Shown: in pieces, positions 20,386 to 43,535 of the stretch
How the letters are laid out: every line of letters starts with the position of its first letter
Position numbering within the stretch: the first letter of the stretch is position 1
Source: Halarchaeum nitratireducens
GTDB lineage: Archaea > Halobacteriota > Halobacteria > Halobacteriales > Halobacteriaceae
Assembly (NCBI RefSeq): GCF_014647155.1
Contig: NZ_BMOQ01000012.1
Location: 1-43,535, forward strand
Reading direction: 5' to 3'
Length of the DNA: 43,535 nt
Notes under the pieces: generated by a model
What the model was told of the DNA's origin: nothing
The model's input: the letters and a program-made list of their open reading frames with translations, nothing else
The model's database searches: none
Program-made: the position numbers and the translations under genes

Positions 20386-20399
20386 GATCCAGATAGATA

Positions 20400-20439: not shown

Positions 20440-20520
20440 GAACACTCCATCATTTCCAGATAAATACCCCTCGTGCCGACTGAAAATAGAGCCGTTTGCG
20501 AGCGAATTTATTTGGCCCGA

Positions 20521-23370: not shown

Positions 23371-23443
23371 ATACGAACACCGAAAGCATAGCTGAAAAGC
23401 CCACCGAGGACATCTCGTCTGTCCCTCCGACATCCAGGCCCTA

Positions 23444-24720: not shown

Positions 24721-24871
24721 GTCTTTCAATTGAAATCGTATTGGTTCGTTACTTTCTCCGGTGAAACAACCATTAGGTAGGACTGCGTACTTACCGCGAG
24801 CGACGGGAGGCTCGCAGGCTTTTCTTCAAGCTTTTCCCAGCGAGCCACAGGCAAGTACAGGGAAAGGTCGC

Positions 24872-26104: not shown

Positions 26105-26771
26105 TAGCTATCTGTTCCACCGCTCTAAGTAAAAGGTTATCCGAAATCGTTTCCCTATCTCGCCGGCGTCGTGCCTGAGTAACCGATGTTCGGGAATCGT
26201 TTTTCTGGACGGCTCGGATTGTATTGAGTAAACGCCGGTAACTCTTCTTTTTCTATCGCGCGCTATACGACATCTGAATAAACGTCTCGCGGAAACGGTT
26301 CTCTTAGCTGACCGGACCGCGTCTGACCACACAAGTTCAAGGAGTCGCTTTTCTCTCCCTCGCGATCTCGGTTCGGTGACGGCTATGCGCTTTGTATTCA
26401 GCACACCTCCGCAAATAGTCTTCAGAAGCGAGATATCTGTGGCGTTCGATTCGCTGGCTATACTTAGCGGTTCGATCAGCATTCCTATTAACGGCTAACG
26501 GCTTCAACAGATCCAGCTATTCGGATTAACGTAGGGGAGTCGGCCAGCTATTGAGCGGGGGCATGTCCGGGGTGTCAGCTCCCCCACCGTGTTGACGAGA
26601 CGCGAAGCGTCTCGTTCACTAACCGGAACGCTTCGCGTTCTAGTGACACCTGATGTCGGGAGTTTCCACCTCGCGATCAGTATGAACGTCGTCCTTCACT
26701 GGGATCAACTGAACCAAGGTCCAAATCTTGGCAGGTTTCTGTGTCCCCAATAGCATGGAGGCAGCAAACCA
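26105..26771. other. Gene-poor stretch with tandem perfect hairpins
   Basis: No supported gene. At 26596-26614 CGAGACGC-GAA-GCGTCTCG and at 26626-26640 GAACGC-TTC-GCGTTC form two adjacent perfect hairpins, preceded by a G-run/C-run pair (GGGGG 26557, CCCCC 26581) and TTGAC. The layout recalls ends of IS605-type elements or structured RNA; nothing nearby confirms either. Confidence 0.4.
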
Positions 26772-27011
26772 ATGGCAACAGATCCCTCGTTCAGACTCGA
26801 ACTCGACACCGCAACTGCCCTTCGCGACTGGCTCCTCAAGGCAAGCCATCGCGATACGATCGAACCAGCAGTCACTAAATCGCTCGCAGAACTCGCCGCT
26901 GGCATCGACGGCCCGCTCCACGGCCAGACCGAGTACCTCGAAATCGGCGTGTCGACGTCGAGATTTTCCCCAGTGAACTCGTCTCCGACCGGCCATACCC
27001 GACGCGAGATG
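26772..27011 (+). pseudogene. 5' part of a gene interrupted by the TnpB element
   Basis: Starts MATDPSFRLELDTATALRDW and continues IEPAVTKSLAELAAGIDGPL then HGQTEYLEIGVSTSRFSP, clearly coding, then runs into the right end of the TnpB element at 27012. The frame beyond is composed of antisense tnpB. A matching 3' part may be the acidic frame at 28425-28680. Family unknown. Confidence 0.5.
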
Positions 27012-27038
27012 AGTCAACTACCCCGCCCTGACGCTCGC

Positions 27039-28304
<1,266 letters not shown>

Positions 28305-28424
28305 ATACGGACGGAGTTCTTATATACGTTCGGGAGTCGACCTACCACTGTCGTGCGGTTTCCGTAGCAGTTATCGGCTCCTCCCCTCCCTACTCGCTTG
28401 TGCTTCCGGCGTGGACGCCGGAAG

Positions 28425-28690
28425 CCCGGCGCTCGTTGAGGAAGGGGCATCCGCCTTGACCGCTTCAGGTGAAACCGCTGATCCATCCGACCACGACACG
28501 GACATAGCTGACAGTCCGGCTGAACGTGGCTCAGCTGATACGGATATGACTCCGTCACAGGTCTACGACGCCCTCCCAGATAACGCGTGGCAGCCCCCAG
28601 CGGAGGAAGATGCAACTCCCGCAGAGCGGTCAGCGACATCGACGAACGACCACGAACAGGTGCCGACTACGACAGCTAGCCGCAACCACC
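28425..28690 (+). other. Acidic + strand open frame, probable gene remnant
   Basis: The frame reads ALVEEGASALTASGETADPS, DMTPSQVYDALPDNAWQPPA and EEDATPAERSATSTNDHEQV, strongly haloarchaeal and disordered. It lies between the TnpB 2 element and an orphan right end and lacks its own start (an internal ATG precedes TPSQVYD). It may be the tail of the gene starting at 26772. Confidence 0.4.
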
Positions 28691-28693
28691 CCG

Positions 28694-29000
28694 TTGACAT
28701 CCTCCTCCGCGTTCACGCGGAGGAATCCCGAGCGGTGGGAGTTTCAGGTTCGCAACCATGACTCCGCCACTTTGTGGGAACCCGTCTAACCCTGTCGTCG
28801 CGGTCGGTGGCTGACTGGCGGTGCCAAACCGCCGTTACTCCTATCCTCGGCGTCGTAGACTCCCATCTGTTGTTTTTGCCAGCAGGGAGTCGCCGACACT
28901 TCAACGGACTCGGAGTTATCAGCGGGCTTGCTCGACCGACGGGCACGAGACGAACCTTTCGAGGATTCGCGTTCACCGCATCGGTGTTTCGGATACTGTC
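28694..29000 (-). mobile_element. Orphan right end and 3' tail of a lost TnpB element
   Basis: On the minus strand, GGGATTCCTCCGCGTGAACG and the 8-bp perfect stem (28704-28723) followed by AGGATGTCAAC is the canonical haloarchaeal IS1341 right end. The frame above it ends SHRPRRQG-stop near 28786 and may be the last part of a tnpB. No RuvC core remains. This could leave a transcribable guide scaffold without its own nuclease. Confidence 0.55.
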
Positions 29001-29161
29001 TCATTGAGTGGCGGGTAGACCGCCTCCAACGGTCGTTCGGAATCCGCTCCGTTCCGACCTGACCTTACCGACATATAGCGGTTCTTGAAATTTGAATATT
29101 AGGATTGGAAACTCGGCTATGCTATTGACGGTGGAACGTGACACTGAGTGACGGCGCGTAT

Positions 29162-29181
29162 CCACGGCCTGAACGCCGTGG
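29162..29181. repeat. Perfect hairpin, TnpB-right-end-like
   Basis: CCACGGC-CTGAAC-GCCGTGG, flanked by GCGTAT and TATTGCGC, resembles the stem of IS1341 right ends but lacks a clear GTTGAC terminus. It lies in the 29001-29232 gap, which otherwise shows no gene. Confidence 0.35.
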
Positions 29182-29232
29182 TATTGCGCCTGTACAGCGT
29201 ATAACGACGAGGACGCCGCCGCGTTCCAGTTC

Positions 29233-29376
29233 ATGGCCTCGTACGAATGCGGCGTGTGCGGGGCGGTCCAGGAGATGGAGACCTCACTGCAGGTCTGTGC
29301 ATTCATCGACGACTGCGCGGCCTGTGGCGCCGTCGACGTCCGGTTCAGTGCAGTCGGACTCCCGGAGCCAATGTAG
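29233..29376 (+). CDS. 47-residue zinc-finger protein
   Basis: ATG 29233 to TAG 29374. MASYECGVCGAVQEMETSLQ then VCAFIDDCAACGAVDVRF: two CxxC knuckles (CGVC, CAAC) forming a probable rubredoxin-like zinc ribbon. The coding-like frame continues a little upstream without a start, so it could be a fragment. It converges with the coupling protein gene, 22 bp away. It may bind nucleic acid or protein. Confidence 0.5.
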   Translation: MASYECGVCGAVQEMETSLQVCAFIDDCAACGAVDVRFSAVGLPEPM

Positions 29377-29398
29377 GGACGCGCTCGTCTTGCTGCCG

Positions 29399-31138
29399 TC
29401 ACTCTTTGGCGTGTTCAAGCGCTCGCTCGAGCTGCGCCTGGATCGTCGAAAAGCGAGCGATCAGACCGCGCATCCAACCGTCGGGGACGATGACGATCGC
29501 CTCGCCATCGTCGAGACGTTCGAGGTCGCTTTCGGCGATCGGATGCGCTTCATCTTGGAGTTCTTGGCGTCCGACGGAGCGGCCGTCACGATCATGCACA
29601 GGAACGGAGCGGCGTTGTTCCTCACGGCCAATCTGCGACCGGGCGTACTCAACGCTCGCAGTATCGCCAACCCGCATGATTACGGACTGGACGAGACCGC
29701 TCAGTAGCGCGTTCGCGCGATCTTGCCCGTAGGCGTCGTGGAGCTGGGCGACCGACTGGACGCCAAGCAGGAGCTGGGTGTTCCGACTCCGTCCCGCGTT
29801 GATCAGGTCACCGATCTTCCGGAGACTAGGAAGGCGTGCGAACTCGTCCAGGACGAAATACGTATCTTGGTCGTCAGCAAGCGCAAAGCGTGCTGCCCAG
29901 TCGATGAAGAATCGGAATGCGGGTTGCACTGCATCCCCTTCTGTAATCGGGAAGTCCAACAGTAACGTCCGGCCCTGTGGATCCTGCATGTACTCGCGAA
30001 TCGAGAACTCACCTGCCTCGGCGAAATCGCCGCGGAAGAGGTCAGCGATGATCTGCTGGAAGTTGGCGTAGACACCGGCCGCTTGCCGTTCCGAATCCGG
30101 ATCAATTGCCGAGGCCGCCGCAGTGAGGTCCGAATGGTCGGTGAGCTGCTCGTGCATCTCTCGTTTATCAGTCGACTGGACGAATGCCACGAGATCAGCG
30201 TTCGTCGGCGTCGTATCATTCGCTTGGGCTTCCCGGTGGAGATACGTCACGACCGCAACGAACAACTGGCGTGCAGCAGGGCTGAAGAACTCCGAGCCCT
30301 CCGTTTTAGGGAACAGTGCGCGGCCGATTTCGTCGATGTCGGCCTCGCGTTCGATTTCAGCGAAGATATTCCAGTGGTCGGTTGCGCCCGTCGACGAGAG
30401 GTAGATTAGGTCCTCGTGGTTGTGGTCGCGTTCGAGGATGTCCTGATATTCGCCTTTGTAGTCGAAGACGACAAACGGATCGTCGGCTCCGGCCTGCATC
30501 TGATGGGAGAGATGTTTGATCGTCTCCGTCTTCCCCGCACCAGTCTCCCCGAGCACGAGGATCGAACGGTCCTTCTGCAGTGGGAAAAACCGCGAGAGAT
30601 TCAGGTGGTCGCTTGCCGCAGAGAGGCCCCGAAATGGTAGGACGTAGTTCCCGTCGGTGATGATTCGTCGGAGTTCGCGTTCCGTGTCCCAGGTACGCAG
30701 TCGCTGGCCAGTATATACTGTAGCGCCGAGTATGACGATGAAGCCGCCGACGCGGAGTAGCGTGAACTGCTCGACGAGCGGGAGGGCTAGCCCGGTCAGA
30801 TACCCCGCCTGATGGAGGATGAGTTCGGCCAGCTGTACGAGCAGGAGGACATGGAACGCCCAGAACAGTTTGAGGTGTGCGGGAAAGAGCAGGACAGTGC
30901 CGACCGCCCCAACCAGATAGAACAGCGGGACGAGCCAGAGTGCGCGGCTACGATGCAGTCCCTCAAACTTGACGTCGTAGAAATTCACGCGCTCGAGAAT
31001 GGCGTACACCCAGGGAACCAGCAGTGTGGCCGCCATCACCGCCGCGATCTTGAAGAAGATCTCTTCCTCGTCCTCTTGCCGATAGTCCTCTGTTTGAGAC
31101 TCGGAATCAGTGCGTGCGCTCACGAATTCACTCTCCAA
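29399..31138 (-). CDS. VirD4/TraG-like type IV coupling protein
   Basis: 579 residues. The N-terminal 150 residues hold about four membrane helices (AAVMAATLLVPWVYAILERV; LFYLVGAVGTVLLF; GGFIVILGATVYTG). The RecA-like motor has Walker A LGETGAGKT (residues 197-204), FDYKGEYQDIL, Walker B YFVLDEFARLPSL and LLLGVQSVAQLHDAYG, typical of TraG/TraD/VirD4 with TraM-recognition domain. It would connect a relaxase-DNA complex to a membrane channel. The relaxase lies about 9 kb away; no VirB4 was found. Confidence 0.88.
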   Translation of the reverse strand: MESEFVSARTDSESQTEDYRQEDEEEIFFKIAAVMAATLLVPWVYAILERVNFYDVKFEGLHRSRALWLVPLFYLVGAVGTVLLFPAHLKLFWAFHVLLLVQLAELILHQAGYLTGLALPLVEQFTLLRVGGFIVILGATVYTGQRLRTWDTERELRRIITDGNYVLPFRGLSAASDHLNLSRFFPLQKDRSILVLGETGAGKTETIKHLSHQMQAGADDPFVVFDYKGEYQDILERDHNHEDLIYLSSTGATDHWNIFAEIEREADIDEIGRALFPKTEGSEFFSPAARQLFVAVVTYLHREAQANDTTPTNADLVAFVQSTDKREMHEQLTDHSDLTAAASAIDPDSERQAAGVYANFQQIIADLFRGDFAEAGEFSIREYMQDPQGRTLLLDFPITEGDAVQPAFRFFIDWAARFALADDQDTYFVLDEFARLPSLRKIGDLINAGRSRNTQLLLGVQSVAQLHDAYGQDRANALLSGLVQSVIMRVGDTASVEYARSQIGREEQRRSVPVHDRDGRSVGRQELQDEAHPIAESDLERLDDGEAIVIVPDGWMRGLIARFSTIQAQLERALEHAKE

Positions 31139-31324
31139 TTGTGCCGTTGACTACTGAATGTGGAAGTGTCTTCTTCATCTATCTGGGATACGAATAATAT
31201 TGAACTGCTCACATCCTGGTTCGATGTGCAGTACACGGGTGCTGGCGTCGAGCCGAACGCCGACGCGCCTAGGAGGTCCGGCGGTATCTACGACCTAATC
31301 AAGGAGTTCTACCGTCATTCACCG

Positions 31325-31453
31325 CTAGCCGCCGTGCGCTTGATAGTACGTGTCGGCGAAGTGTCGCCAATTCTCGCACAGACGTTCCTCAGCATCCGCA
31401 GCATCAAAATCCGACGGGAGAGAGGTATCTTTCCCGCCTTCTTCGCTATAGTT
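31325..31453 (-). pseudogene. 3' fragment of an acidic gene
   Basis: The minus frame reads YSEEGGKDTSLPSDFDAADA then EERLCENWRHFADTYYQAHG and stops at 31325-31327. A stop lies just upstream and there is no start. Codons are strongly haloarchaeal. A + strand frame extends through this stretch but has poor composition, so the + gene is started at 31499. Confidence 0.4.
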
Positions 31454-31498
31454 CTACCACCGGGAATTATTTCATCGAGAGAACTGTACAGCATCCAG

Positions 31499-31909
31499 AT
31501 GACATCCCACATCACGTCTACCTGGTCACTCAGAACGAAACCAAGCTGGTGGGAGATCGCGCTAGCGGTATTGATCGGAGCGGAAGCACTCGTCAACTTC
31601 GCAGGTGACAACGAAATCGCGTGGTTTTGGTTCATGATCGGCTCTGCAATGTTTGGGCTGGCGGCTGGCCCCGGCGCAGCCTCAGATGTTGGGCAACAAA
31701 TCGGAACATGGTTCAAGAGCATCGGGGTAGCAGGCCGTCTACTCGCGATTATAGGATTCGCAGTAATGATGTGGGCAACGACAGCGACATTACCGTTCGT
31801 CCGCACGCCGCTCTATAGCCTCTCAACCGGCGGACTCCTCACTATCGCTGTCTTGGTTTTTCTCAAACTCGTCGTGTCATCCCTGACCACCGAAGCTCAG
31901 AGTGAGTAA
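31499..31909 (+). CDS. Four-TM membrane protein
   Basis: 136 residues starting MTSHITSTWSLRTKPSWWEI. Four hydrophobic helices (ALAVLIGAEALVNFA; FWFMIGSAMFGLAAGPGAA; LAIIGFAVMMWATTATLPF; LLTIAVLVFLKLVV). TATA-like CGCTATAG lies about 50 bp upstream. Family unknown. Palindromic site D starts 36 bp after its stop. Confidence 0.6.
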   Translation: MTSHITSTWSLRTKPSWWEIALAVLIGAEALVNFAGDNEIAWFWFMIGSAMFGLAAGPGAASDVGQQIGTWFKSIGVAGRLLAIIGFAVMMWATTATLPFVRTPLYSLSTGGLLTIAVLVFLKLVVSSLTTEAQSE

Positions 31910-31944
31910 TCCGGTACTGTACTCACAAGTAGAAGGAGATGGTA

Positions 31945-31986
31945 TTAACCAACACTGACGCGTCATACTGCGTGTCTGTTGGTTAA
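31945..31986. repeat. Dispersed palindromic site D
   Basis: TTAACCAACAC (31945-31955) and TGTTGGTTAA (31977-31986), with an inner palindrome TGACGCGTCA. Directly follows the four-TM gene. Confidence 0.8.
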
Positions 31987-31997
31987 TCACTGGCTGT

Positions 31998-32306
31998 GTG
32001 GACGTCGTCGAAACGCCGGTCGAGAGCGTGCCTGTTACTGTTGGCCGCTCAGCGAGCCCCACGATGGTGCCGCGCCAGCCAGCTGAAGCAGCGCGAGGGA
32101 CTCAGGAACCGCGGTGTGTGCGTGTCGCCAAACGCGACGTCCGCTGTCGCCCTACTCGCTCGCGCGGCCGCGGACATTGCGCCTTCCACTGTATCCCGCT
32201 CGCACCAAGGCACCGGGTGTGACGACTGAGGAGTAGGTGCCGTCACTGCGAATACCCGGCACTCGTTTGTTGTGAGTCCCGCTTGAGTAACTGGCCCGAG
32301 AATGCA
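31998..32306 (+). pseudogene. Possible Cys/His-rich small gene with internal stop
   Basis: GTG 31998 opens VDVVETPVESVPVTVGRSAS ... HCAFHCIPLAPRHRV and stops at 32220. The same frame then reads SRCRHCEYPALVCCESRLSN to a stop at 32307. The CxxC and HxxxHC clusters suggest a zinc protein broken by one nonsense codon, but the opposite strand also has an open frame here. Weak call. The rest of the gap to 32529 shows nothing. Confidence 0.25.
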
Positions 32307-32529
32307 AATCCGTGAGTCGTCGACGACAGATAGCGATGCATCGACCCGTCGGTGACTGAAGCGAGAGGTAGCTGGCCTTGTTACACGAGATGATGGACTG
32401 GGTAGACGCTTCCGAGAAGAGTGAGGAGGGGTTGGGCTGAGCTATGCGCGACGTAAATTCGGTGGTTCTCACCGCGTGGCAGGTCTAGAGCTCCACTCTT
32501 TCCGTCACCGGCGGGAATACCGCCCGCGG

Positions 32530-33255
32530 TCACTCGTCCGTGAGCGCGACCGCGCGCACGTCGCTCCCCGCGACACTCGACACCGACCCGTCGCGGAGCG
32601 CGAGCGTCACACCGTAGCTCCACGATGTCGTCGCACCGTCCGCACTCGTCCCCGGGTGCACCGACACACCGGTCGTCGCGCGGTAGTCGCCATCCGGGAA
32701 GCACGACCCGTCACCGTACGTGTAGACGTCGTACGCGACGCGCAGCGACTCACCGGCATCGAGCGTCCGCGCGTATGCGATGGAGTCCGTCGAGTAACTC
32801 CCGGTGACGCGCCAACACTCGTCGGCGCGGCTCTCGGGCGGGAGGTCGCTCGCCGTGCCGTTCCCGATGGCGACTCTTTGGACGTGCTGGCGCGCGTCGT
32901 CACTCACCGGATAACAGAACAGCGACGCGTCGCCCTCGGTGGCGTCGAGCGTCGTCACCGAGAACGGCGGCGCGAACCCGAATGTGGCCGTGAACGGATC
33001 GCGTCCGTCGTTCGTCAGCGTCGCCGTGAATCGGGACGGGTGGTCGGCTGTGACGTTGCGCACGAGATCTGCCTCGAACGACGCTATGTCTGGTGAAAGC
33101 GAGGCTTCATCATTCGAGGACGTCTCACCCGTCATGTTTGTCCCGTTCGAGGTGCTTGGCGTTGAATTCCCGGTTTCTCTCAGTCCGTTGCAGCCGGCGA
33201 AGCTGCCGAGGGTAATTGCGCTTACGCTCGTAAGGACCGCACGTCGGGAGGGCAT
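32530..33255 (-). CDS. Tat lipoprotein with Ig-like fold, unknown function
   Basis: 241 residues from ATG 33255. Twin-arginine signal MPSRRAVLTSVSAITLGSFA and lipobox FAGC, a Ser/Thr/Asn linker, then a beta-rich domain (RFTATLTNDGRDPFTATFGF; AGESLRVAYDVYTYGDGSCF). Three cysteines may pair. A TATA-like TATTATAGTATAT lies just upstream, 40 bp from the IS6-type element. Probable cell-surface protein. Confidence 0.75.
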   Translation of the reverse strand: MPSRRAVLTSVSAITLGSFAGCNGLRETGNSTPSTSNGTNMTGETSSNDEASLSPDIASFEADLVRNVTADHPSRFTATLTNDGRDPFTATFGFAPPFSVTTLDATEGDASLFCYPVSDDARQHVQRVAIGNGTASDLPPESRADECWRVTGSYSTDSIAYARTLDAGESLRVAYDVYTYGDGSCFPDGDYRATTGVSVHPGTSADGATTSWSYGVTLALRDGSVSSVAGSDVRAVALTDE

Positions 33256-33295
33256 ATAGTGTGCATCTGCATCTATTATAGTATATGCCTTCTGG

Positions 33296-34040
33296 GGCAC
33301 TGTCTAGTTAAGCCAGTTTGAGAAGCGAGCAGTTCGTTGGTTTTGGTGTCTATGCTCAACCAAGAACTGCTCAGAGAGACGTTGGAGACGGCGAATCTTG
33401 AATGTTGGGAGCGTGAGCGGACGGCGACGCCCGTCAGGGCGTTCGCCGTCCGCCTCCACGCGACCGGTTGTTCGCTCAGGGAGACAAAGGAGATTCTTCG
33501 GCTATTCGGTGTAGAACGCTCGCATCAAGCGATCTTTCAGTGGGTACATCGAGTATCTGATAGCGTTGGCGACCCGCCGACGGCGAAGCCGTCAAGGGTC
33601 GCAGTTGACGAAACCGCTATCAAAATCAACGGAGAGTGGTCTTGGTTGTACGCTGCAATTGACCTCGACACGAAGTTAATTCTCGACGTCGAGTTGTTTG
33701 GACGGCATGGCACCGATCCGGCGGCTGCGTTCTTGCATGGACTCCGCGAGAAACACGATCTCTCCAACACGGTGTTTCTCGTCGATCAATTCGGCTATCG
33801 GACTGCCTTTCATCGATTAGGGTTGAACGGTCGGGTGGACTATACCGACCGGAACCTCATCGAAAAGTGGTTCCACACCCTCAAAATGCGCATCGACCGT
33901 TTCCATAACTCGTGGGTCGGCAGTCGGTCGAGTGCACGCGAATGGCTTGAACAATTTGCGCATTACTACAACCATCAGAGACCGCATCAATCGCTCGATG
34001 GAAGAACGCCGGTCGAGGAGGTGCTAAACTAGACAGTGCC
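33296..34040 (+). mobile_element. IS6-family insertion sequence, intact
   Basis: 745 bp with inverted ends GGCACTGTCTAGTTAAGCC... and ...CTAAACTAGACAGTGCC. It contains one intact transposase. No 8-bp target duplication is seen (flanks CCTTCTGG versus CTCACCAA), so it has probably taken part in a cointegrate or deletion event. Two solo ends of the same type lie at 1655 and 19136. Confidence 0.85.
33352..34032 (+). CDS. IS6-family DDE transposase
   Basis: 226 residues, the normal IS6 length, starting MLNQELLRETLETANLECWE. Order: helix-turn-helix (GCSLRETKEILRLFGVERSH), first Asp in RVAVDETAIKINGEWSWLYA, second Asp in VFLVDQFGYRTAFHRL, Glu in RNLIEKWFHTLKMRIDRFHN. Full frame, no shift. Replicative transposition forming cointegrates is expected. 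Confidence 0.9.
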   Translation: MLNQELLRETLETANLECWERERTATPVRAFAVRLHATGCSLRETKEILRLFGVERSHQAIFQWVHRVSDSVGDPPTAKPSRVAVDETAIKINGEWSWLYAAIDLDTKLILDVELFGRHGTDPAAAFLHGLREKHDLSNTVFLVDQFGYRTAFHRLGLNGRVDYTDRNLIEKWFHTLKMRIDRFHNSWVGSRSSAREWLEQFAHYYNHQRPHQSLDGRTPVEEVLN

Positions 34041-34071
34041 CTCACCAAACTTATTAATAATATACTAGGCT

Positions 34072-34467
34072 TTATTCTATCTGATCTGAAAACCACTTAA
34101 GCCGACCGCTCGGAGTGATGGTGAATACAATATAATTCGGTTCTCTCTGCTCAGTATGCGTCCAATTAAATTCTATACTTGGGCCAGTTAATAGACCAGC
34201 TTGAATTCGATATCGTCCATTATCGGTATAGAACTCACTGATTGTTTCTGTCCCGCGTTCAGGGATTCGGATGCTTGTATTATGCCGGTATTCTTGAGTT
34301 CGACCTTCGTTTGGAGATGAGAGTGTCTTAATAAGCAAAGTACGAGACGATTTATGATTATTTTTGATCTTTATTGACCCCGGAGAGATTGGATTTTGAC
34401 TGCTACACCCTGCGATAGCCGTTGTACTGATTCCTGTCATAGCTGCCAAGAGTTTTCTTCTCTTCAT
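34072..34467 (-). CDS. Small lipoprotein, AT-rich gene
   Basis: 131 residues from ATG 34467. Signal MKRRKLLAAMTGISTTAIAG with lipobox AIAGC. The mature part is beta-rich and Lys/Asn-containing (IKIKNNHKSSRTLLIKTLSS; TDNGRYRIQAGLLTGPSIEF), less acidic and lower in GC than most genes here, which suggests recent transfer. Family unknown. Confidence 0.65.
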   Translation of the reverse strand: MKRRKLLAAMTGISTTAIAGCSSQNPISPGSIKIKNNHKSSRTLLIKTLSSPNEGRTQEYRHNTSIRIPERGTETISEFYTDNGRYRIQAGLLTGPSIEFNWTHTEQREPNYIVFTITPSGRLKWFSDQIE

Positions 34468-34655
34468 TATATACAGAGGAACTAAATACACCGATTATAT
34501 TGTACCTTTGGTCTATTGCTGACAGTTCAGCCGTGAGTGTCCGCCGAGTGAGTTCCCGATACGACGGCGGCGACCGAGTGCCCGGAGGTCGAACGTGACC
34601 GCTACTCGTCGCTGTGCTTTTCAGCTTCTTCCGGAGATAGAACTTTTGTTGAGTA

Positions 34656-34951
34656 CTAATCTTTCTCGTCTGATTCTTCGAACCTCTCTACTTCGACCGT
34701 TTCCAGCATTCTGGCGTATCCTTCCTCAGTAAGCTTGTAGTGCCCTCTTTCGACTTTCTCAACCAGTTCCCCTACTTCTAGTGTATTCAGGCGGTTTGAG
34801 ATGGAACTCCTTGGTCTGTCGATGTTCTTATCAATCACGGAAGGTGTGAGGATGAGACCCTTAGCCAGCAGTTTGCAGATTTCGCGGTCCAAATCTGTAA
34901 TCCAGTCTGGCGGACTGAGTTCCTCGCGTTCGAGATCGGCGACGAGGTACT
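34656..34951 (-). pseudogene. 5'-truncated winged-helix regulator
   Basis: The frame YLVADLEREELSPPDWITDL, DREICKLLAKGLILTPSVID, SSISNRLNTLEVGELVEKVE, KLTEEGYARMLETVE is a typical haloarchaeal phage/plasmid winged helix. No ATG or GTG is available before a stop at 34952; the next gene starts at 34958 on the other strand. A TTG at 34892 could give a 78-residue product. The N-terminus was probably lost at a recombination junction. Confidence 0.55.
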
Positions 34952-34957
34952 ACCCCG

Positions 34958-35740
34958 GTGAGCGACCTGCAACCGCTGTCCCCGGAAGAGGCGTGGCGCC
35001 TCTACAAGGACGGCCGCCGTGACGAGCTGTCGAAGGAGACGCTGGACGGTCAGAAGTACCGCATCCGTGCGTTCATCGCGTGGTGCGAAGAGGAGGGCAT
35101 CGAGAACCTGAACGACCTCGACGGCCGCGGCCTGTACGCGTACCGCGTCTGGCGCCGCGAAGGCAACTACGGTGCCGACGACGACGAGGAACCCGAGGAA
35201 CTGCGGACGGTGACGCTGAAGGGGAACCTCGCAACCCTGCGCGCGTTCCTCCGGTTCTGCGGAAACATCAATGCCGTATCTGAAGAACTGTTCGAGCAGG
35301 TCCCGCTGTCCGCAGTGAGCCGCGGCGAGGACGTGAGTAAGACGACGCTCGACCCGGAGCGCGCCCACGCCATCCTCGACTACCTCGAAAAGTACCACTA
35401 CACCACCCGGACCCACGTTGTCGTCCTACTGCTGTGGCACACAGGTTGCCGAACGGCGGCCCTGCGTGCGCTCGACCTCGAAGACCTGGACCTCGACGCG
35501 AGCCGCCCGAACGCGGACGGCCTCGCCGTCCACTTCGTCCACCGGCCCGCTGAGGGAACTCCGCTGAAGAACGACGAGAAGGGTGAACGCTGGAACACCA
35601 TCTCGGAGTTCGTCGCGGCGGTTCTCCAAGGCTACATCGACGGCCACCGCGTCCCGAAGACGGACGAGTACGACCGTGCGCCGCTCGTGACGACGGAACA
35701 CGGGCGCATCACCCGACCACGGTGCGGAACACACTCTACC
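34958..35740 (+). pseudogene. Tyrosine recombinase lacking its catalytic C-terminus
   Basis: GTG 34958. Complete N-terminal SAM-like core-binding domain (LSKETLDGQKYRIRAFIAWC ... LATLRAFLRFCGNINAVSEE) and the start of the catalytic domain with Arg I (LLWHTGCRTAALRALDLEDL) through APLVTTEHGRITRPR. Then the frame runs into antisense sequence of the next gene. The HxxR and Tyr motifs are missing, so it cannot recombine DNA. Head-only remnant. Confidence 0.75.
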
Positions 35741-36077
35741 GGGTCTCACGGCCCTGCTGGCGAAGGCCGAGGCGAACCGATAGGCGGAGGAGCTCGCTCC
35801 GATCCACGCTTTCCGGGTTCGCGTCACGACCGAGTGCCTCCTGGAACGCGACGCCGACGTCGTCAAGCTCGCCAGTCTCCTCGAGCGCACGGACGAGCGC
35901 GGTGAGGCGAGCGTCCCGCACGGAGAGCGTCTTCGAGAGCTCGCCATCCTCGATAGCGTCTAGGAGCGTGACCATCGCGTCCTCCAGTTCGTCCCCGTCG
36001 TTACTCGACGGCTGGGACTGGGCACGAGTACCGACGTCCGTCTGCCGTCGGAGCTCCTCGAGTTCGTCGTCGGTCAT
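35736..36077 (-). CDS. ParA-partner-like acidic protein (second par locus)
   Basis: 113 residues (MTDDELEELRRQTDVGTRAQ ... VRALEETGELDDVGVAFQEA ... SELLRLSVRLGLRQQGRETR). Its start overlaps the stop of a ParA fragment (ATGA), so it was the second gene of a par operon. The helical C-terminus could bind DNA. Whether it is still expressed is unclear, as its operon head is truncated. Confidence 0.55.
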   Translation of the reverse strand: MTDDELEELRRQTDVGTRAQSQPSSNDGDELEDAMVTLLDAIEDGELSKTLSVRDARLTALVRALEETGELDDVGVAFQEALGRDANPESVDRSELLRLSVRLGLRQQGRETR

Positions 36078-36420
36078 CGGCGGGCCTCCAGGCGTTCGAC
36101 GAGCGCCTCGGCGTTCGTTTCGTAGGCGTCGATCGCACGCTGCGCGGTCGTCGACGGCTGGGCGAGCGTGAAGAGCGTCCCACCACGCATCTGGGCGTTC
36201 TGGACGTCCTGCGAGCTCGGGATCTGCGTCGGCGCCAGAGCCTCAGGGTACTCGTCCTGGAACTCCTCAAGGTACGTCTTCCCGGCGGTGGTGCGTTCGT
36301 CGACCTCGTTCAGGAGAACCATCACGAGCTTGATGTCGACGTCCTGCTCGGCGCGGATCGTCTCCAGGTCGCGGCGTAGCTGGGCGGCCTGTCCCGCCTC
36401 GAAAGGACCGGTCCGGACTG
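36074..36420 (-). pseudogene. C-terminal fragment of a second ParA ATPase
   Basis: Reads RTGPFEAGQAAQLRRDLETI, DIKLVMVLLNEVDERTTAGK, IPSSQDVQNAQMRGGTLFTL and AQRAIDAYETNAEALVERLE to stop 36074, the C-terminal half of a ParA/MinD-like ATPase. Walker A and B are absent. The junction with the opposite-strand gene is near 36420. Distinct from the intact parA at 201. Confidence 0.65.
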
Positions 36421-37005
36421 GCGCGACGTCAATGAATTCGCCGACGCCCTCAATACCGACGGAGAGAGCAGCGGCACCGCCTCGTGGGGCGACGTCGAGA
36501 TCGCCTTCGCCATCTTCGACGAGGAGCCGGAGGAGATCCGGCTGAAGTACACCACCACCCGCGACGGCGAGACAGTCGAACACGACTACACCATCCGAGT
36601 CACCCGAACCGAGTGCAACTTCGGTGGGACGCGGCCCTGGTGGCGGTGCCCGCACTGCTACGACCGTGTCGGGACGCTCTACCTCCCTCCAACGGCGAGG
36701 AAGTCTGCTGTCGAGACTGCCACGACGTCGCCTACACGTCCTCGAGAGCGTCGGGTAACACCGACCGAACGCTCCGCATGCGGTACAACCGGATCCGAGA
36801 GAAGCTGGGGGCTGGCCCAGCACACCCGAACAGCATCAGCGCCGGAATCCCCGACCGACCGAAGGGAATGCACGAGGAGACGTACGAGGGCCTCGTCGAG
36901 GAGCTGGAACAAGCACGAAAGGAATGGGAGCAGAAGGCCTACTTCGGGCCGCTGAATGACCATTACGGCATCGAGCCTGGCGATCCACTTCTGAACCGTG
37001 AGTAG
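36420..37005 (+). pseudogene. Frameshifted zinc-ribbon plasmid/prophage protein
   Basis: Frame 1: DWRDVNEFADALNTDGESSG, EIAFAIFDEEPEEIRLKYTT, RPWWRCPHCYDRVGTLYLPP. A one-base loss near 36690 then shifts to NGEEVCCRDCHDVAYTSSRA ... GIEPGDPLLNRE-stop at 37005. The W..CPxC..R..LYLPP..CRxC..LAYxS pattern is a widespread zinc-ribbon protein of mobile elements with unknown role. The 5' end is missing at the junction with the ParA fragment. Confidence 0.65.
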
Positions 37006-37045
37006 GAGAGTAGGCGAGCCAATCGCCCCGCACACCCTGCCAACC

Positions 37046-37079
37046 TTAACCTCCACTTCCCCCCGGGAATGTTGGTTAA
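37046..37079. repeat. Dispersed palindromic site E (short variant)
   Basis: TTAACCTCCACT (37046-37057) faces ATGTTGGTTAA (37069-37079). The left arm is diverged and the site is 34 bp instead of 40-43. It begins 41 bp after the stop at 37005. Confidence 0.6.
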
Positions 37080-37146
37080 GACCGAGCCCTAGGACGCCGC
37101 CGGCGCCTAGGAGAGAATCTAAGGCAGAGCCGTGAGAAGCCCAGAC

Positions 37147-37374
37147 ATGGCCGCGTCGAAGGGTGGGGTGACTGACGAGGAGCTTATAGAGGCCGTGAAG
37201 GAACACACCCCTGCGGGGACATCGGAGGTCGCCGAACACGTCGCCCTGAGCCGGCAGGCAGCCGACAACCGCCTGCGGCAGATTGAGGGCCGCCACGCGA
37301 CCCCACCAGTGTGGTCAACGAAAATCGGCCCGACGAAGGTATGGCTGCACGCCGACCACGTCGCCCCTCGCTAA
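37147..37374 (+). CDS. Small winged-helix protein, paralogue 1
   Basis: 75 residues: DEELIEAVKEHTPAGTSEVA, VALSRQAADNRLRQIEGR, then KIGPTKVWLHADHVAPR. A minimal winged helix with a C-terminal wing strand (GPTKVWLH). A paralogue lies on the opposite strand at 37685-38008. Probably a DNA-binding regulator of the module between sites E and F. The 37375-37684 stretch between the two shows no gene. Confidence 0.6.
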   Translation: MAASKGGVTDEELIEAVKEHTPAGTSEVAEHVALSRQAADNRLRQIEGRHATPPVWSTKIGPTKVWLHADHVAPR

Positions 37375-37684
37375 CCCCACCGGCTTCGGGTTTTCTCGCC
37401 GTGGGACATGCGTTTCACGAAACGTTTTTCACGGAGCAAAGTGCCAGATCCTGGCTCAATACGCCGCCTACCCGGTATTTCGACTTACATACGCTGCTTT
37501 CCAACCACCTCCCGCCAGTATGACTCTTCGACCGTAGGAGCATCTGACACTCCTGATTTAGCTTCTTCAGGTGGGCGTTGGGGGCAGGGTCTTCCGGTCG
37601 TGCCGAATTCGTTGACTAACACGCAAATATCGGTGGTAGAGGCTCTGGTAGGACGTGGCAAATGGTTTTGCTACGGCGCAAGTG

Positions 37685-38008
37685 TCATCCTTGCCCACTA
37701 TTGGGCAGGAAGTTCGGCATTGACCCGAGCGGCTGGTCGTTCACAGTACGGTAGATGTCGCCGTGGATTCGATCGCGGACGTCCTCGGCGCTGGTGTTGC
37801 GCTCAGGATCAGGGTCGGACATAACGCGGGGGTGCATCCACACGTTCGTTGGCCCGACCTTCTTCTTCCAGATTTTCTCTCTTCGTTCGAGTGCGTGCAG
37901 GTGGTACGCGGTACACTGCCGAGAGAGGCCGATGTTCTCTGCAACCTCCGACGTCCCAGCTGGGGTGAAGCGATAGACCGCTTGCTCGATCTCCTCTTGG
38001 GAGGGCAT
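37685..38008 (-). CDS. Small winged-helix protein, paralogue 2
   Basis: 107 residues from ATG 38008 (MPSQEEIEQAVYRFTPAGTS EVAENIGLSRQ, KKVGPTNVWMHPRVM). It shares PAGTSEVAE, LSRQ and GPT-VW-H with the protein at 37147, then has a longer acidic C-terminus (DPDPERNTSAEDVRDRIHGD). An alternative start at 38032 adds MEPRRRYK. The two face each other and may regulate common targets. Confidence 0.6.
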   Translation of the reverse strand: MPSQEEIEQAVYRFTPAGTSEVAENIGLSRQCTAYHLHALERREKIWKKKVGPTNVWMHPRVMSDPDPERNTSAEDVRDRIHGDIYRTVNDQPLGSMPNFLPNSGQG

Positions 38009-38405
38009 CTTATACCGTCGGCGGGGTTCCATACAGACTGTAGGGTCGCCATCTTCTTAATTTCCAGAACCGAACTGCGGGCGCTGCCTCTGCTATCCTT
38101 GATGACTACCTGCCGGTGAAGTACTGGCCATGGAGACACAGGTCGCTCTCTGACGAACAGGCCATGACACCCCCACCTGTCATGGGTCGATCCCTCGCCG
38201 GGGATGATCGGTGCCCTTGGTGGTCGGTGTGACTCTGTGCTCGACGCCAGTATCGTGCTGCTGTTCTTGGAGGTGAGTTCGGCTTGTGGTCAGGGATGGC
38301 GTCCGCACTCCCCGACTGGTATGTGATACTGTCAGACGAACGTCGGAGTTCCGAGTAAACTGCGACGTTCAGGTTCTTCATGGTGGGGGTGTGAGAGGGA
38401 GAGTA
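38009..38405. other. Intergenic stretch with a perfect hairpin
   Basis: No supported gene. CATGACA-CCCCCACC-TGTCATG (38163-38184) is a perfect 7-bp hairpin lying between the divergent winged-helix and integrase genes, so it could be an operator. Confidence 0.4.
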
Positions 38406-39024
38406 GTGCCGCCGAGAGATGAGTCGAGGAATCCCGACGTTCACGGCCGCGCAACCTCGTGGTTGAAGCCCGAGCAGGTCGAGGCGATGCGCGACGTGTG
38501 TCTGTCCGAGCGATTCCCCACATATCTACAGGATCGGAACGAGGTCATCATCGCGCTCGCCTACGATACAGGCCTCCGTGCTGTCGAACTCGTCGGGCTC
38601 GACGTCGACTATCTCGACCTCGACGTCGGCACGGTCTATCTCCCCAGCGACCTGCAGAAGGGCTCGCCACCACCGGCAACCCTCTCGCTCGAGCGTGAGA
38701 CCGTCCGCCTGCTCCGCCGATACCTTCGCGACCGCTGGAAGGACGTCGACGCCGTCTTCCCTGCACGAAGCAGCCCACGACTCCACGACACGTTCGCTTG
38801 AGCGTGCGGTGAAGGCCATCGCCGTCGAGGCCGGCGTCGAGCCCCAGCTCGCCACCGGTGGAACCGGCGACCCCGAGGACGTCACCCCACATACTCTCCG
38901 GCACTCAGTGGCCTACCGAATCGTGCAGGTCGAAGGCGGCCGCCTCGAGGATGTCCAACTCCGCCTCCGACACTCGACGCTCCGCACGACAGATGCGATC
39001 TACTCACACCTCGTCCCGCGGTAG
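38406..39024 (+). pseudogene. Frameshifted tyrosine recombinase
   Basis: GTG 38406 frame: TSWLKPEQVEAMRDVCLSER, ALAYDTGLRAVELVGLDVDY (Arg I), VGTVYLPSDLQKGSPPPATL, DVDAVFPARSSPR, then stop 38800. From about 38765 the next frame continues SLERAVKAIAVEAGVEPQLA, DVTPHTLRHSVAYRIV (HxLR), LRLRHSTLRTTDAIYSHLVP (R/H and nucleophile Tyr) to stop 39024. All catalytic motifs exist but in two frames. Site F begins 10 bp downstream. Confidence 0.75.
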
Positions 39025-39033
39025 TCTGTGGTC

Positions 39034-39076
39034 TTAACCTACACTCACATCCTGGGGCTCCCTCAGTGTTGGTTAA
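39034..39076. repeat. Dispersed palindromic site F
   Basis: CTTAACCTACACT (39033-39045) and AGTGTTGGTTAAG (39065-39077) pair with a single mismatch over 13 bp. It lies 10 bp after the integrase stop, the position expected for a site used by that recombinase. Confidence 0.8.
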
Positions 39077-39101
39077 GCTTCCTCTCCTATATTTCTCGGA
39101 G

Positions 39102-39342
39102 AACGCCTCGGTCGAGTTCGAGCGTCCGTCCGTCTCAATCACCCCCGACGAGTAGAACACGCCGAATCTCTGGGGTTTCACCCCCTCGTCGCGCAGATTC
39201 TGTTTCACCCACCGAAACCCGAATCTCGTCGTGCAGTTCGTTCTCCGCTTAAATCTGCGCGACGGGGATTCTCCGTGCTTCTGTGGCCGTGAAAGACGGC
39301 TGTATATCGCCGAAATCATCCACAGGAACGGGCAATATGCAG
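39102..39342. repeat. Diverged duplication, copy 2 (copy 1 at 5937-6133)
   Basis: Shares about 200 bp with 5937-6133. This longer copy retains a minus-strand frame reading RWVKQNLRDEGVKPQRFGVF and YSSGVIETDGRSNSTEAFSE, which looks like a decayed gene of unknown type. Confidence 0.65.
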
Positions 39343-39531
39343 GCTGCAGCCGCCGGGGAGAACCACGGATTCTCCATAGTTGGATTCGGACGGAACGCGA
39401 CGTCGAGACGCGTCGACGGCACGGTGCAACGTGGCTACAAGGCGCTCGGGTTCACCGACGACGTCCCCGCACTTGACGACACTCCCGAGCGTGACGATCC
39501 CGACGATTCACACCAAGGCAGTCTGTTCTGA
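39337..39531 (+). CDS. Small hypothetical protein
   Basis: 64 residues from ATG 39337: MQAAAAGENHGFSIVGFGRN, ATSRRVDGTVQRGYKALGFT, acidic tail DDTPERDDPDDSHQGSLF. The SIVGFGRNATSR part is also present at about 7370-7400. The start lies inside the duplicated segment, so the gene may be a fusion of a repeat-derived N-terminus to another tail. Confidence 0.4.
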   Translation: MQAAAAGENHGFSIVGFGRNATSRRVDGTVQRGYKALGFTDDVPALDDTPERDDPDDSHQGSLF

Positions 39532-39542
39532 CGGGGACATCG

Positions 39543-39642
39543 CCGGGTAGAGGCGATACCCGACGGGAGAACCGGTGTGTCGCACCGCGTGGCCGGGTAG
39601 AGGCGATACCCGACGGGAGAACCGGTGTGTCGCACCGCGTGG
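39543..39642. repeat. Perfect 50-bp tandem repeat with hairpins (oriT candidate)
   Basis: Two identical 50-bp units (39543-39592 and 39593-39642). Each contains CGGGTA-GAGGCGA-TACCCG and CGGTG-TGTCG-CACCG hairpins. It sits about 460 bp from the end of the relaxase operon. Paired hairpins in direct repeats near mob genes suit an origin of transfer or a structured RNA. The motif CGATACCCGAC also recurs near 39846. Confidence 0.55.
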
Positions 39643-40104
39643 CAGGCTAAAACCCTGCTAGCACTTTCTAAGAAAACGCCAGACAGCGTAGGGTTATAGG
39701 TGCGCTGGTATGGATATACGGTACGGTGGTTTGGGAATTGATGTTTAAGGCCCCCTCTCGTGTCGCAGGACCCATCTGGAGAAACGACCCCCGCTCATCC
39801 GTAGGAGATTGGTGATGCTGCGGAGTCGAAGATGGCAAGGGCACCACGTCAGCGATACCCGACACGAATGATTTCGCAGGACATGTTTACTACAGAGTTG
39901 CTCCGACGAGAGCGTTAGTTGTGGTGGGTCATCAATATCGATAGAAGAAGAACGGACTCGAAGAAATGCCAGCCTCCAGATCGAGAGAGGGACGACTGGG
40001 AGCCCCGGAGTCCGTAGTGTGGAAGAGCCAGACGAGGAGCAACAGAACCTACCTAACAACGAACCACGACGGACGAACGTAGTACTGGAAACGTCTCTGC
40101 GGAC
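39643..40104. other. Gene-poor stretch beside the relaxase gene
   Basis: About 460 bp without a convincing gene on either strand; the longest frames are Arg/Ser-rich shadows. It includes a lone CGATACCCGAC near 39846. It could hold cis-acting transfer sequences. Confidence 0.35.
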
Positions 40105-40650
40105 TCATCGGCTGGGTCCCTGATCGCGGCCCTGGTCCAGCTCTTGGCTAATCTGCTCCTGTGCCTGCTCTTGGTTCAGTGACTCGTCAAGGGCCTGGTC
40201 GAGGGCATACTCAACGCCCTGCTCCTGTTCGATGGAATGCTCGTGCGCTCGGTCACGGATCTGGTCGAGATCATCCCGGTCAATCCAGAGTGGGTCGCCA
40301 GGCTGGTCAGCGCGCCCCGTCGCGACCACGTGCGCGTGCGGACGGTCACCACCATCACGATGGACTGCATACGCCCAGTCAACGCCCTCGTGACTACCGA
40401 TGGTTTCACGGATGGTTTTCCGGGTCGCACGCCCGATTTCCTCGTTATCGAGCTGTTCCGCATTCTCGGGCGAGATGATGAGATGACGACTCATTCCGTG
40501 CTCCTCGGAACGGTCGAGCAGATGTTGCTGCTCGCTCGCGTCCATTTCCTGGCCCGTTCGGTCGCGCAGATTCTCTTCCTCGTGCTCGATATAGCGCATC
40601 AGCGCCCCTGTATCTCGGCGCTCAAAATCAGAGTCAATGACCGTTGTCAT
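40105..40650 (-). CDS. Relaxase-like mobilisation protein
   Basis: 181 residues. The 3-His metal motif is clear: AVHRDGGDRPHAHVVATG with His97, His105 and His107, matching the HxDxx..PHxH signature of MobA/VirD2-type HUH relaxases. GMSRHLIISPENAEQLD matches the conserved strand before it. A candidate nucleophile is Tyr20 in ALMRYIEHEEE. The C-terminus is Gln/Glu/Asp-rich coiled coil (QEQAQEQISQELDQGRDQGP). It is small, carrying the nicking domain only. It overlaps the RHH gene (ATGA). Confidence 0.75.
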   Translation of the reverse strand: MTTVIDSDFERRDTGALMRYIEHEEENLRDRTGQEMDASEQQHLLDRSEEHGMSRHLIISPENAEQLDNEEIGRATRKTIRETIGSHEGVDWAYAVHRDGGDRPHAHVVATGRADQPGDPLWIDRDDLDQIRDRAHEHSIEQEQGVEYALDQALDESLNQEQAQEQISQELDQGRDQGPSR

Positions 40651-41138
40651 TGGTTGCCCTCACGCAGTGCTTCGAAATCGAGGCCACCGCTGTCCTGGTC
40701 GGCGTCATCTTCAGCAGTTGCGCCCTGGTCGGCTGTTTCGCCCTGACCATCACTCTCGCCGCTAGCGAGATCGTCGACGTCCTCCTCACGGAGTCGTCGC
40801 GCACCGGTTTGCAGAGCCTCTCGGATAGCGGCCTCTCCGTGTTGCTGTTTTATGAGTTCAAACGCAGCAACAGCATAGACCCCAGTCTTCGCGTTCAGAT
40901 CCTGCATCTGTCGTGCAGTGTCTTCCATATCGGTGAGGCCGTCATCGAGGAGGTCTTGTAGCCGTTCAGCTGCCCGCGTTTCAGCAGAGACCGCGCCCTC
41001 ACGTTCTCGACGAAGTCCCTCGCGAACGAGTTCAAACACAAGAGTTGAGCGGGTCGTGTCCTGCTCATCCGCCAGCTCGTCCAGTTCGCGCAAGGTCTGC
41101 TCGTCGCTATAGAACGTTATTTCTTGATCACGCGCCAT
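40647..41138 (-). CDS. Ribbon-helix-helix mobilisation accessory protein
   Basis: 163 residues from ATG 41138: MARDQEITFYSDEQTLRELD, ELADEQDTTRSTLVFELVRE, a textbook RHH domain. Then a helical region (RLQDLLDDGLTDMEDTARQM) and an acidic disordered tail. MobC/TraM-like RHH proteins bind oriT and help the relaxase nick. It is coupled to the relaxase gene downstream (overlap ATGA). It may also autoregulate the operon from the 41139-41547 region. Confidence 0.75.
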   Translation of the reverse strand: MARDQEITFYSDEQTLRELDELADEQDTTRSTLVFELVREGLRREREGAVSAETRAAERLQDLLDDGLTDMEDTARQMQDLNAKTGVYAVAAFELIKQQHGEAAIREALQTGARRLREEDVDDLASGESDGQGETADQGATAEDDADQDSGGLDFEALREGNQ

Positions 41139-41547
41139 GTGACTCTCCCTCGGTTTCACAGGTATCTGTTTTGGGAGACAGAATACTGTCTTTCCAGTCC
41201 CGTCCCGTGCTTGAAGTTACTATCATCGGAGGGCGGTTACACCGTTATTGTCAGCCGTTTTCAGACCCGCAAGCCGTTCTCAATGGTTCGTGAATGGCTA
41301 GTATATTATAAGCTACGAGTTGCGGAGTCTGCATACTATCGTCGCAACGAATCACATTGGTTCAGAGGCTTAACAACCACCACAAGCGAGGCGACCGAAG
41401 GATGGGGCCCTCATACGGGTCCCGACTGACGGAGCCGAGCGCACGCCCCCAAGCGGAGCGACGGGGGCACTCGTGATGCGATAGCGGTTCGATGCGCACT
41501 CGTAGATCTCCTTGTCTTGCTAGCCATGATCGACCCGAGACGATTAT
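41139..41547. other. Upstream region of the mob operon
   Basis: No supported gene. Contains the expected promoter of the RHH-relaxase operon and hairpins such as GGGCCCTCATACGGGTCCC (41404-41422) and GCCCCC...GGGGGC (41446-41469). A second place where oriT could lie. Confidence 0.35.
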
Positions 41548-41548
41548 C

Positions 41549-41590
41549 TTAACCAACGCTTTGCGGTGAATGGGAAATTATGTTGGTTAA
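41549..41590. repeat. Dispersed palindromic site G
   Basis: ATCTTAACCAAC and GTTGGTTAAGAT pair over 12 bp (41546-41592), with core TTAACCAACGC...ATGTTGGTTAA. It lies 50 bp before the first origin iteron, between the mobilisation and replication modules. Confidence 0.8.
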
Positions 41591-41640
41591 GATCACCAGA
41601 TGTGCTCATCTAAGAGATTATAGAGAGGTGGCGGACCGGC

Positions 41641-42136
41641 GTTTCCGGAGGTTCCGCAGGCCACCCCATCATTTCCATAGGTTCCGGAACCCACACCACC
41701 ATTTCCGCAGGTTCCAGAGGTCGGGGCACTGTTTCCGGAGGCTAGTAGAGATTAGCCGGAGAATCGCAGTACAGTAGCCGATTTAGCGGAACGACCACAC
41801 ACACCCTCCACTGTTTCCGCAGGTTCGAGCAAAAGGACTAGGAGGTCGCATTTTACAACCCAAACTCCCACCACTAGAATAATTAGTAGACTGCAGTACG
41901 GGTTTGGTTAATCTCAATATAACATAAACCTTTCCCCTAGTAAATAGTGATCTTGGCCTCCCCGGCCACTCTTCCCGTGAACCTGCGGAAACGATGGAGG
42001 GTGTGTGTCGGATCAACTGCAATCTCTACTCCGTCTTGCGATTTCACCGTGTTTTGCAGAACACCTGCGGAAACGATGGTCCCCCGTACGGAACCTGCGG
42101 AAATAGTGGTGTGTCCTACGGAGCCTCCGGAAACGG
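41641..42136. other. Replication origin: converging iterons around an AT-rich element
   Basis: Forward boxes (RTTTCCGSAGGTTCC) start at 41641, 41671, 41701 and 41731, exactly 30 bp apart, with another at 41813. Reverse boxes occur at about 41979, 42061, 42091 and 42121, again 30 bp apart. Between them 41840-41950 is AT-rich (GAATAATTAGTAG, CAATATAACATAAACC), a likely unwinding element. Converging Orc1 boxes around an unwinding element next to orc1 is the standard haloarchaeal origin layout. Confidence 0.85.
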
Positions 42137-42196
42137 TGGTGTGTCCAGTCAGGTTCTTCCCCGCTTCTCGAAACAGTCGTATTGACCGTGCCGATC

Positions 42197-43417
42197 TTAC
42201 TCCTCAACCAAGTGCTGAACGTTCTTATGAACTCCAATTGTATCGATGGTATCGGCGAGTGCTGTGAGGACTTCAGAGGTGGGATGGTTCAGCGAGTGAG
42301 ACTTGTACTGACCTCCTGAGGAATCGTGTTTCACTTGGGATTCGATGATGTTTAACTCATCAAGCCGGCCATAGTAGTCCCGTGCTCGGCGTTCCGAGAC
42401 AGGATCATGCCCAACCATCTGTGCAAAATCACTATAGAGATCATAGAGAATTGATGATGTGACTTCTTCATCCTCTCGCTCTTCGAGAACCGCGAGTGCA
42501 TATGCGACGATCTTGATATTTTCCGGCAGATCAGCCAACACTGACATCGACCGTTCTATCTCATATTCGTCCATTGCTTCCTCAACGAGATCGTCTGTGA
42601 CGTGGTCCTTTCCTCGCTCGCGAGCGTAGTCACCAGCGATCCGAATTAAGTCGAGGACCATCCGTGCGTCGCCACTGTTCTTTGACCCCAGAGCTGCTGC
42701 ATAGGTGATTGCTGCGTTGGTCACCACATCTTCGTAGAAGGCGGTATCGACGCGTTGGCGGAGCACCTGCTCAAGCTGGCTGGCATCGTACGGCGGGAAC
42801 TCAATGACGCGCTCGCGAAGGGAAGACCGGACATCTGATGATAGATTTTCACCGAAGGCAGTATCGGTGCTAATTCCGATGAGACCGAGCTTTGTCTCCG
42901 TAAGATCACCATAGCTCGCGGCGCGCGTCGCTTTGTACAGGAACGTGTCGATGTTCGCCACGTGGTCGATTTCGTCGAGGACGATGAGAGCGGTTCCCCC
43001 AATCTTGTCGAGCTGGTTGAAGAAAACGGAATAGACCTTACTCTCGGGATGGCCCGTTGAGGGGAGATAGTTCTCCGAATTTGGGATCAATTGATTTGCG
43101 AGTTCTATCGTCAACTGATACGACGTATTCACCCCTTCACAGTTGATTGGAAGGACTGCAAGCTCAGTCTGTAGGTTCTCCGACGCCTCAAGCTGGTTGA
43201 GTACCCAGTGTGTGACAGCGGTCTTCCCGACGCCGTTCTGCCCGTAGAGGAAGATGTTATCTGGACTTTCTCCTTTGTAGACGGGTAGGAGGGCATTCAT
43301 ATACTCCTCTTTCTTTTCGTCGCGCCCGACAATTTCTGAGGGTATGTATTCGTCAGCGAGCGCGTCTCGATTCTCGAAAATCGCGCTCTCTGACAAATCA
43401 TCAAAGGCTGATGTCAT
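42197..43417 (-). CDS. orc1: Orc1/Cdc6 replication initiator
   Basis: 406 residues from ATG 43417 (MTSAFDDLSESAIFENRDAL). AAA+ ATPase with Walker A YGQNGVGKTA (residues 58-67), Walker B TALIVLDEIDHV, sensor region ETKLGLIGISTD and Arg-finger area SSDVRSSLRERVIEFPPY. C-terminal winged helix (EVTSSILYDLYSDFAQMVGH; ERRARDYYGRLDELNIIESQ). It binds the iterons on both sides of the gene to load MCM. An upstream frame to 43474 lies in the iteron region and is rejected. Confidence 0.95.
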   Translation of the reverse strand: MTSAFDDLSESAIFENRDALADEYIPSEIVGRDEKKEEYMNALLPVYKGESPDNIFLYGQNGVGKTAVTHWVLNQLEASENLQTELAVLPINCEGVNTSYQLTIELANQLIPNSENYLPSTGHPESKVYSVFFNQLDKIGGTALIVLDEIDHVANIDTFLYKATRAASYGDLTETKLGLIGISTDTAFGENLSSDVRSSLRERVIEFPPYDASQLEQVLRQRVDTAFYEDVVTNAAITYAAALGSKNSGDARMVLDLIRIAGDYARERGKDHVTDDLVEEAMDEYEIERSMSVLADLPENIKIVAYALAVLEEREDEEVTSSILYDLYSDFAQMVGHDPVSERRARDYYGRLDELNIIESQVKHDSSGGQYKSHSLNHPTSEVLTALADTIDTIGVHKNVQHLVEE

Positions 43418-43457
43418 AGCGGGGGTTGGCGTGGTTACCTCAACCAGCGAACACCAC

Positions 43458-43535
43458 AAAAAACCTTCGACCACCGTTTCCGCAGGTTCCGTAGGTGGGG
43501 GGTGAGTTTCCGTAGGCTACCCGAATATCCACAGC
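43458..43535. repeat. 78-bp terminal redundancy (circular closure)
   Basis: Identical to bases 1-78. This is the overlap of a circular molecule, not a biological duplication. The true plasmid length is 43,457 bp, and the iteron array runs through the junction. Confidence 0.92.

Follow-up and report, generated by a model that had tools for sequence, protein, structure and literature searches.

The conjugative plasmids characterized in Sulfolobus and Thermococcus (pNOB8 type, pT33-3) resemble the haloarchaeal systems considered here in having archaeal hosts and in coding for VirB4 and VirD4-like ATPases, but no relaxase is known on them, and a 2025 review describes them as lacking one (PMC12857230). 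Double-stranded DNA transfer has been suggested as possible in archaea (PMC6563490). A survey from 2011 called a single archaeal plasmid, pNG500, conjugative and reported very few relaxases in archaea apart from that case (PMC3158045), and a plasmidome study reported MOBP matches in a community dominated by haloarchaea (PMC8563766). Plasmid pNG500, from Haloarcula marismortui, carries a full transfer operon (pilin-...-VirB4-RHH-RHH-relaxase-T4CP, the last gene coding for a coupling protein). Its relaxase (RR_RS01185) belongs to the family described here (~30% identity) and shows the same RHH-relaxase-T4CP order as the module of the other relatives, although it is larger (251 aa, with a longer tail) and lies at the end of a complete pilin-to-VirB4 operon with two RHH genes. 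As pNG500 was already called conjugative in 2011, and part of the haloarchaeal family already bears the name "relaxase" at NCBI, we regard the family as a minimal archaeal version of known relaxases and not as a new system.

The DNA analyzed here (the window) is the entire contig NZ_BMOQ01000012.1 of Halarchaeum nitratireducens, 1..43535. Its first 78 nt are identical to its last 78 nt, so the best reading is that of a circular plasmid present in full (43,457 bp). It codes for an Orc1/Cdc6 replication initiator (42197..43426, minus strand; TIGR02928, E=3e-107), flanked on both sides by ORB-like repeats (TTTCCGNAGGNT), and for the plasmid partition ATPase ParA (192..971, plus strand; PF13614, E=2.9e-36). 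A tyrosine recombinase gene (38286-39024, plus strand) is split by a frameshift, while a second integrase-like ORF (4840-5445, minus strand) is open and 70% identical to an integrase near the relaxase of the Haloarcula plasmid CP050019. The cargo includes a DUF2298 membrane protein within a GC-rich stretch (14770-17388), a TFIIB-like factor (21125-22267), a Fic-domain protein (24872-26104), and a TnpB-like (Cas12f1-like) protein (27039-28304). The original prediction had described one pair of genes on this DNA, a small relaxase-like protein with an HUH signature and an RHH partner. It stands as far as the pair goes, but it had not seen that the window is a complete plasmid, nor the coupling protein remnant and the second, intact coupling protein gene described below.

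The relaxase gene (40105-40650, minus strand) is an intact ORF of 181 aa with the limits originally given to it. The protein scores 26.7 bits against the Pfam Relaxase model PF03432, above the gathering cut-off of 24.6, and its best NCBIfam match is MobP1 (NF041450, E=2.4e-8), although the N-terminal 94 profile positions are unmatched and the score of 33.7 bits lies far below the curated cut-off of 200. All 22 aligned haloarchaeal relatives match PF03432 (E up to 0.1), and 17 of the 22 family members match NF041450. A profile-profile comparison by hhalign with bacterial MOBP/DUF3363 relaxases, represented by seven proteins, gave a probability of 98.9% and E=1.5e-17 over query residues 17-139. 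The bacterial proteins, among them those of Xanthomonas campestris (L089) and Mesorhizobium (L109), align with ours in the motif-I tyrosine (Y20), the I.SPE block, the TR pair, and the H...PHxH block. However, they exceed 570 aa and carry a DUF3363 C-terminal part, whereas the haloarchaeal members measure 168-251 aa and the window protein consists only of the nuclease domain and a C-terminal tail rich in Gln and Glu. The original guess of a minimal or divergent family is thereby borne out.

The three HUH histidines are present with the predicted numbering (H97, H105, and H107, with spacings of 8 and 2). Y20 and H97 are invariant in 22/22 haloarchaeal members and D99 is nearly so, while H105 or H107 is replaced by D or Q in two subgroups of relatives, so that the family as a whole does not keep strictly to the motif. 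The role of Y20, first given as uncertain, has become clearer: as this residue is invariant and aligned with the bacterial motif-I tyrosine, it is the likely nucleophile. An AlphaFold2 model built from three near-identical sequences (window, L001, and L002) reached a pLDDT of 49 and a pTM of 0.27, too poor to judge whether the protein adopts an HUH fold, and PDB sequence searches returned no match to a relaxase. Neither phage records nor five scans of viral contigs, run with four members and the alignment of the family, yielded a relative.

The RHH gene (40647-41138, minus strand) overlaps the relaxase gene by 4 nt (ATGA) and codes for 163 aa from its ATG, or 170 aa from an upstream GTG. Its match to RHH_1 is weak (17.3 bits, below the cut-off of 20.5), and NikA (PF21983), whose RHH gene also lies beside a relaxase, gave no match to the window protein. 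The RHH proteins of relatives (L037, pNG500) do match NikA, at about 1e-5, with 25.2-25.6 bits; like all haloarchaeal scores, these lie below the Pfam cut-off of 27. On these matches, the RHH partners of the relatives appear closer to NikA than to MobC or TraM.

The Pfam relaxase model detected the relaxase in 20 of the 242 Halobacteria genomes searched, that of the window included; 32 haloarchaeal loci outside the window, located with the same model, were fetched for comparison. The predicted coupling of relaxase and RHH protein is general, with an RHH gene directly upstream of the relaxase in 32/32 loci. A T4CP follows the relaxase in 31 of them, once as a fusion, and in a few loci its own frame is split. 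H. noricense (L004), Halorussus halobius (L001), and Haloarcula japonica (L002) have the T4CP (527-528 aa) directly after the relaxase, with a 4-nt overlap. The distances between relaxases and those between T4CPs are strongly correlated (Mantel r=0.94, P=0.0001, 14 dereplicated loci). The putative mobilization unit of these archaea is a set of three genes, RHH-relaxase-T4CP, and the third is broken on the window plasmid. The likeness first drawn to the bacterial MobA/MobC or TraI/TraM pairs must be amended accordingly: the combination of relaxase and RHH protein holds, while the two-gene unit and the resemblance to MobC or TraM do not.

The homologues are overwhelmingly on plasmids, whereas a restriction to nonmobile chromosomal genes had been named beforehand as an argument against mobilization. 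We found them on 22 haloarchaeal plasmid records, all of which also carry a T4CP of the same kind, and only one of the loci listed is in a multi-megabase contig (G106:C1); three Halocatena records have the T4CP with no detected relaxase. PLSDB types 21 of the 22 relaxase-bearing records as nonmobilizable, which means that common plasmid typing fails on the relaxase plasmids of haloarchaea. A natural relaxase-T4CP fusion of 689 aa (L054:7854-9923), placed directly after the RHH gene, joins the two transfer steps in one protein. One small circular replicon (L146; NZ_CP100460, Halomarina sp. BND7, 16,726 bp) has a terminase large subunit and a phage minor head protein annotated beside the relaxase and T4CP genes, and could possibly be a phage-plasmid hybrid with a transfer module.

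While the T4CP is present or fused in 31/32 relatives, the window has no intact cognate T4CP beside its relaxase. What is left of the gene is a remnant (39880..40108, minus strand) that begins in the ATGA overlap at 40108, where the DNA is 83% identical to the start of the intact T4CP of L004, meets its first stop at codon 20, contains frameshifts, and loses homology near 39880, near codon 78 of 528. Just past the remnant there is a tandem duplication of ~50 nt (39542-39643), and an adjoining 120-nt stretch is 86% identical to L004 18892-19011. A second T4CP of the TrwB/TraD type (29399-31138, minus strand; 579 aa) is intact and lies 9 kb from the relaxase, with a PF10412 score of 156 bits against a cut-off of 20.5. 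Among the matches listed, which are T4CPs directly after a relaxase, the closest is that of CP050019 (86% identical), and the counterparts of this second T4CP in L002 and L004 also stand alone, several kb from the relaxase.

Regarding the secretion channel, a VirB4 homologue is present within the fetched stretch in 20/32 haloarchaeal relaxase loci, and 16 loci of the Haloarcula type have the order membrane proteins-VirB4-RHH-RHH-relaxase-T4CP, as in pNG500. A self-transmissible plasmid would have a VirB4 on the same replicon, and neither phmmer nor the genome search found a homologue on the window's circular plasmid. The related plasmid CP050019 likewise has relaxase and T4CP, and the annotation of the first 50 of its 54 kb lists no VirB4. 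Within the genome of the window, VirB4 homologues occur at three loci on contigs C8, C9, and C11, with a VirB6-like gene adjoining the one on C9; these channels come without the relaxase and T4CP type of the window, and the relaxase is confined to contig C12. As read from its genes, the layout is that of a mobilizable plasmid that would borrow a channel.

Taken together, we think it quite probable that the RHH-relaxase pair processes the DNA within a haloarchaeal mobilization module. The RHH protein would bind a predicted origin of transfer and recruit the small MOBP-type relaxase, in which H97, H105, and H107 would hold a divalent metal while Y20 nicks one strand, the relaxase staying on the 5' end. 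A coupling protein of the TrwB/TraD type would then deliver the relaxase with its bound DNA to a secretion channel of the VirB4 type. With the cognate T4CP broken and no VirB4 found on the plasmid, transfer would need the second T4CP (29399-31138) together with a channel supplied by other DNA of the cell, as for bacterial mobilizable plasmids. Mobilization in trans is the most likely mode for this plasmid, as far as gene content can indicate.

The same broken T4CP could also mean that the module is decaying, i.e., that it worked in an ancestor and that the plasmid, having lost the T4CP, retains genes without a present role in transfer. The frameshifted recombinase and the lack of a detected VirB4 on the plasmid fit this alternative as well, but a plasmid without its own channel is normal among mobilizable plasmids, and the relaxase, RHH, and second T4CP ORFs are all intact. 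All three are under purifying selection, with dN/dS values of 0.13 and 0.06 for the relaxase and the RHH gene against the L004 relatives and of 0.07 for the second T4CP, values that average the whole divergence and would hide a loss of selection that came recently, once the T4CP was broken. We consider an immobile remnant rather unlikely.

A role of the HUH protein as the rolling-circle replication initiator (Rep) of the plasmid is far less probable still. Reps do exist among HUH proteins, the window protein is small, and two relatives weakly match REP_ORF2-G2P (best 0.017), but the best matches of the family are to relaxases, its genes are in operon with T4CPs or fused to them and are inherited together with them, and the plasmid already encodes an Orc1/Cdc6 flanked by ORB repeats. 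Equally improbable is a purely regulatory pair without DNA transfer (e.g., operon autorepression or plasmid copy control), which the frequent role of RHH proteins as repressors and the overlap of the genes might suggest but which the conserved catalytic Tyr and His, the constant T4CP partner, and the VirB4 homologues near the relaxase in 20/32 loci argue against.

Blocks of ~4.2-4.6 kb around the module are about 95-99% (95.7-98.6%) identical among Halorussus, Haloarcula, and Halobacterium, three genera of separate families, and between two of these the relaxase dS is 0.017. Such identity shows a recent horizontal movement of DNA between genera and does not indicate the route. The broader proposal is that haloarchaea perform a true relaxase-initiated single-strand conjugation, built around a relaxase among the smallest known, in which the RHH-relaxase-T4CP cassette is exchanged between genera and can dock on various VirB4 channels resident in the cell, whereas for other archaea a transfer without relaxase is assumed; we hold the chances for and against this proposal to be about even. 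In any case, a haloarchaeal relaxase with its coupling protein offers a genetically tractable place to test the mode of archaeal DNA transfer.

Last, we looked for the site at which such a relaxase might act and found no convincing oriT or nic site in the window. The conserved DNA upstream of the module (41340-41600) was dropped as a candidate because its parts recur elsewhere, in chromosomes and in 77/242 genomes. One of these parts is a GC-rich intergenic element of ~105 nt (41378-41488) with copies of ~75% identity in the chromosomes of other haloarchaea, whose flanks differ between groups of genomes; an Rfam search of 39000-43535 returned nothing and hence no match for the element. The other is an inverted repeat, CTTAACCAAC-N(21-26)-GTTGGTTAAG, located at 41546-41593 in the window and at L069:25000-25042, with constant arms and a variable spacer. 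It was present in 77 of the 242 Halobacteria genomes, most of them without the window-type relaxase and often once per plasmid-size contig, and a reversed control gave zero matches in the genomes listed. No neighboring gene shared by the sites was found, and a search of the open-access literature gave no relevant paper, so we can only ask whether this repeat is a plasmid-level cis element. An IncP-like ATCCTGC at 40899 was also discarded, as it is inside the RHH gene and a 7-mer is weak evidence.

In the pNG500 group, a noncoding block downstream of the T4CP (L069:23510-23860), which was not seen in the window, is matched in 16/16 Haloarcula-type loci. All 12 of the plasmid records matched carry the relaxase, and seven match over nearly the whole block, while five of the matches fall on a dispersed repeat. 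Judging by this distribution, the block is a candidate oriT for the Haloarcula-type group.
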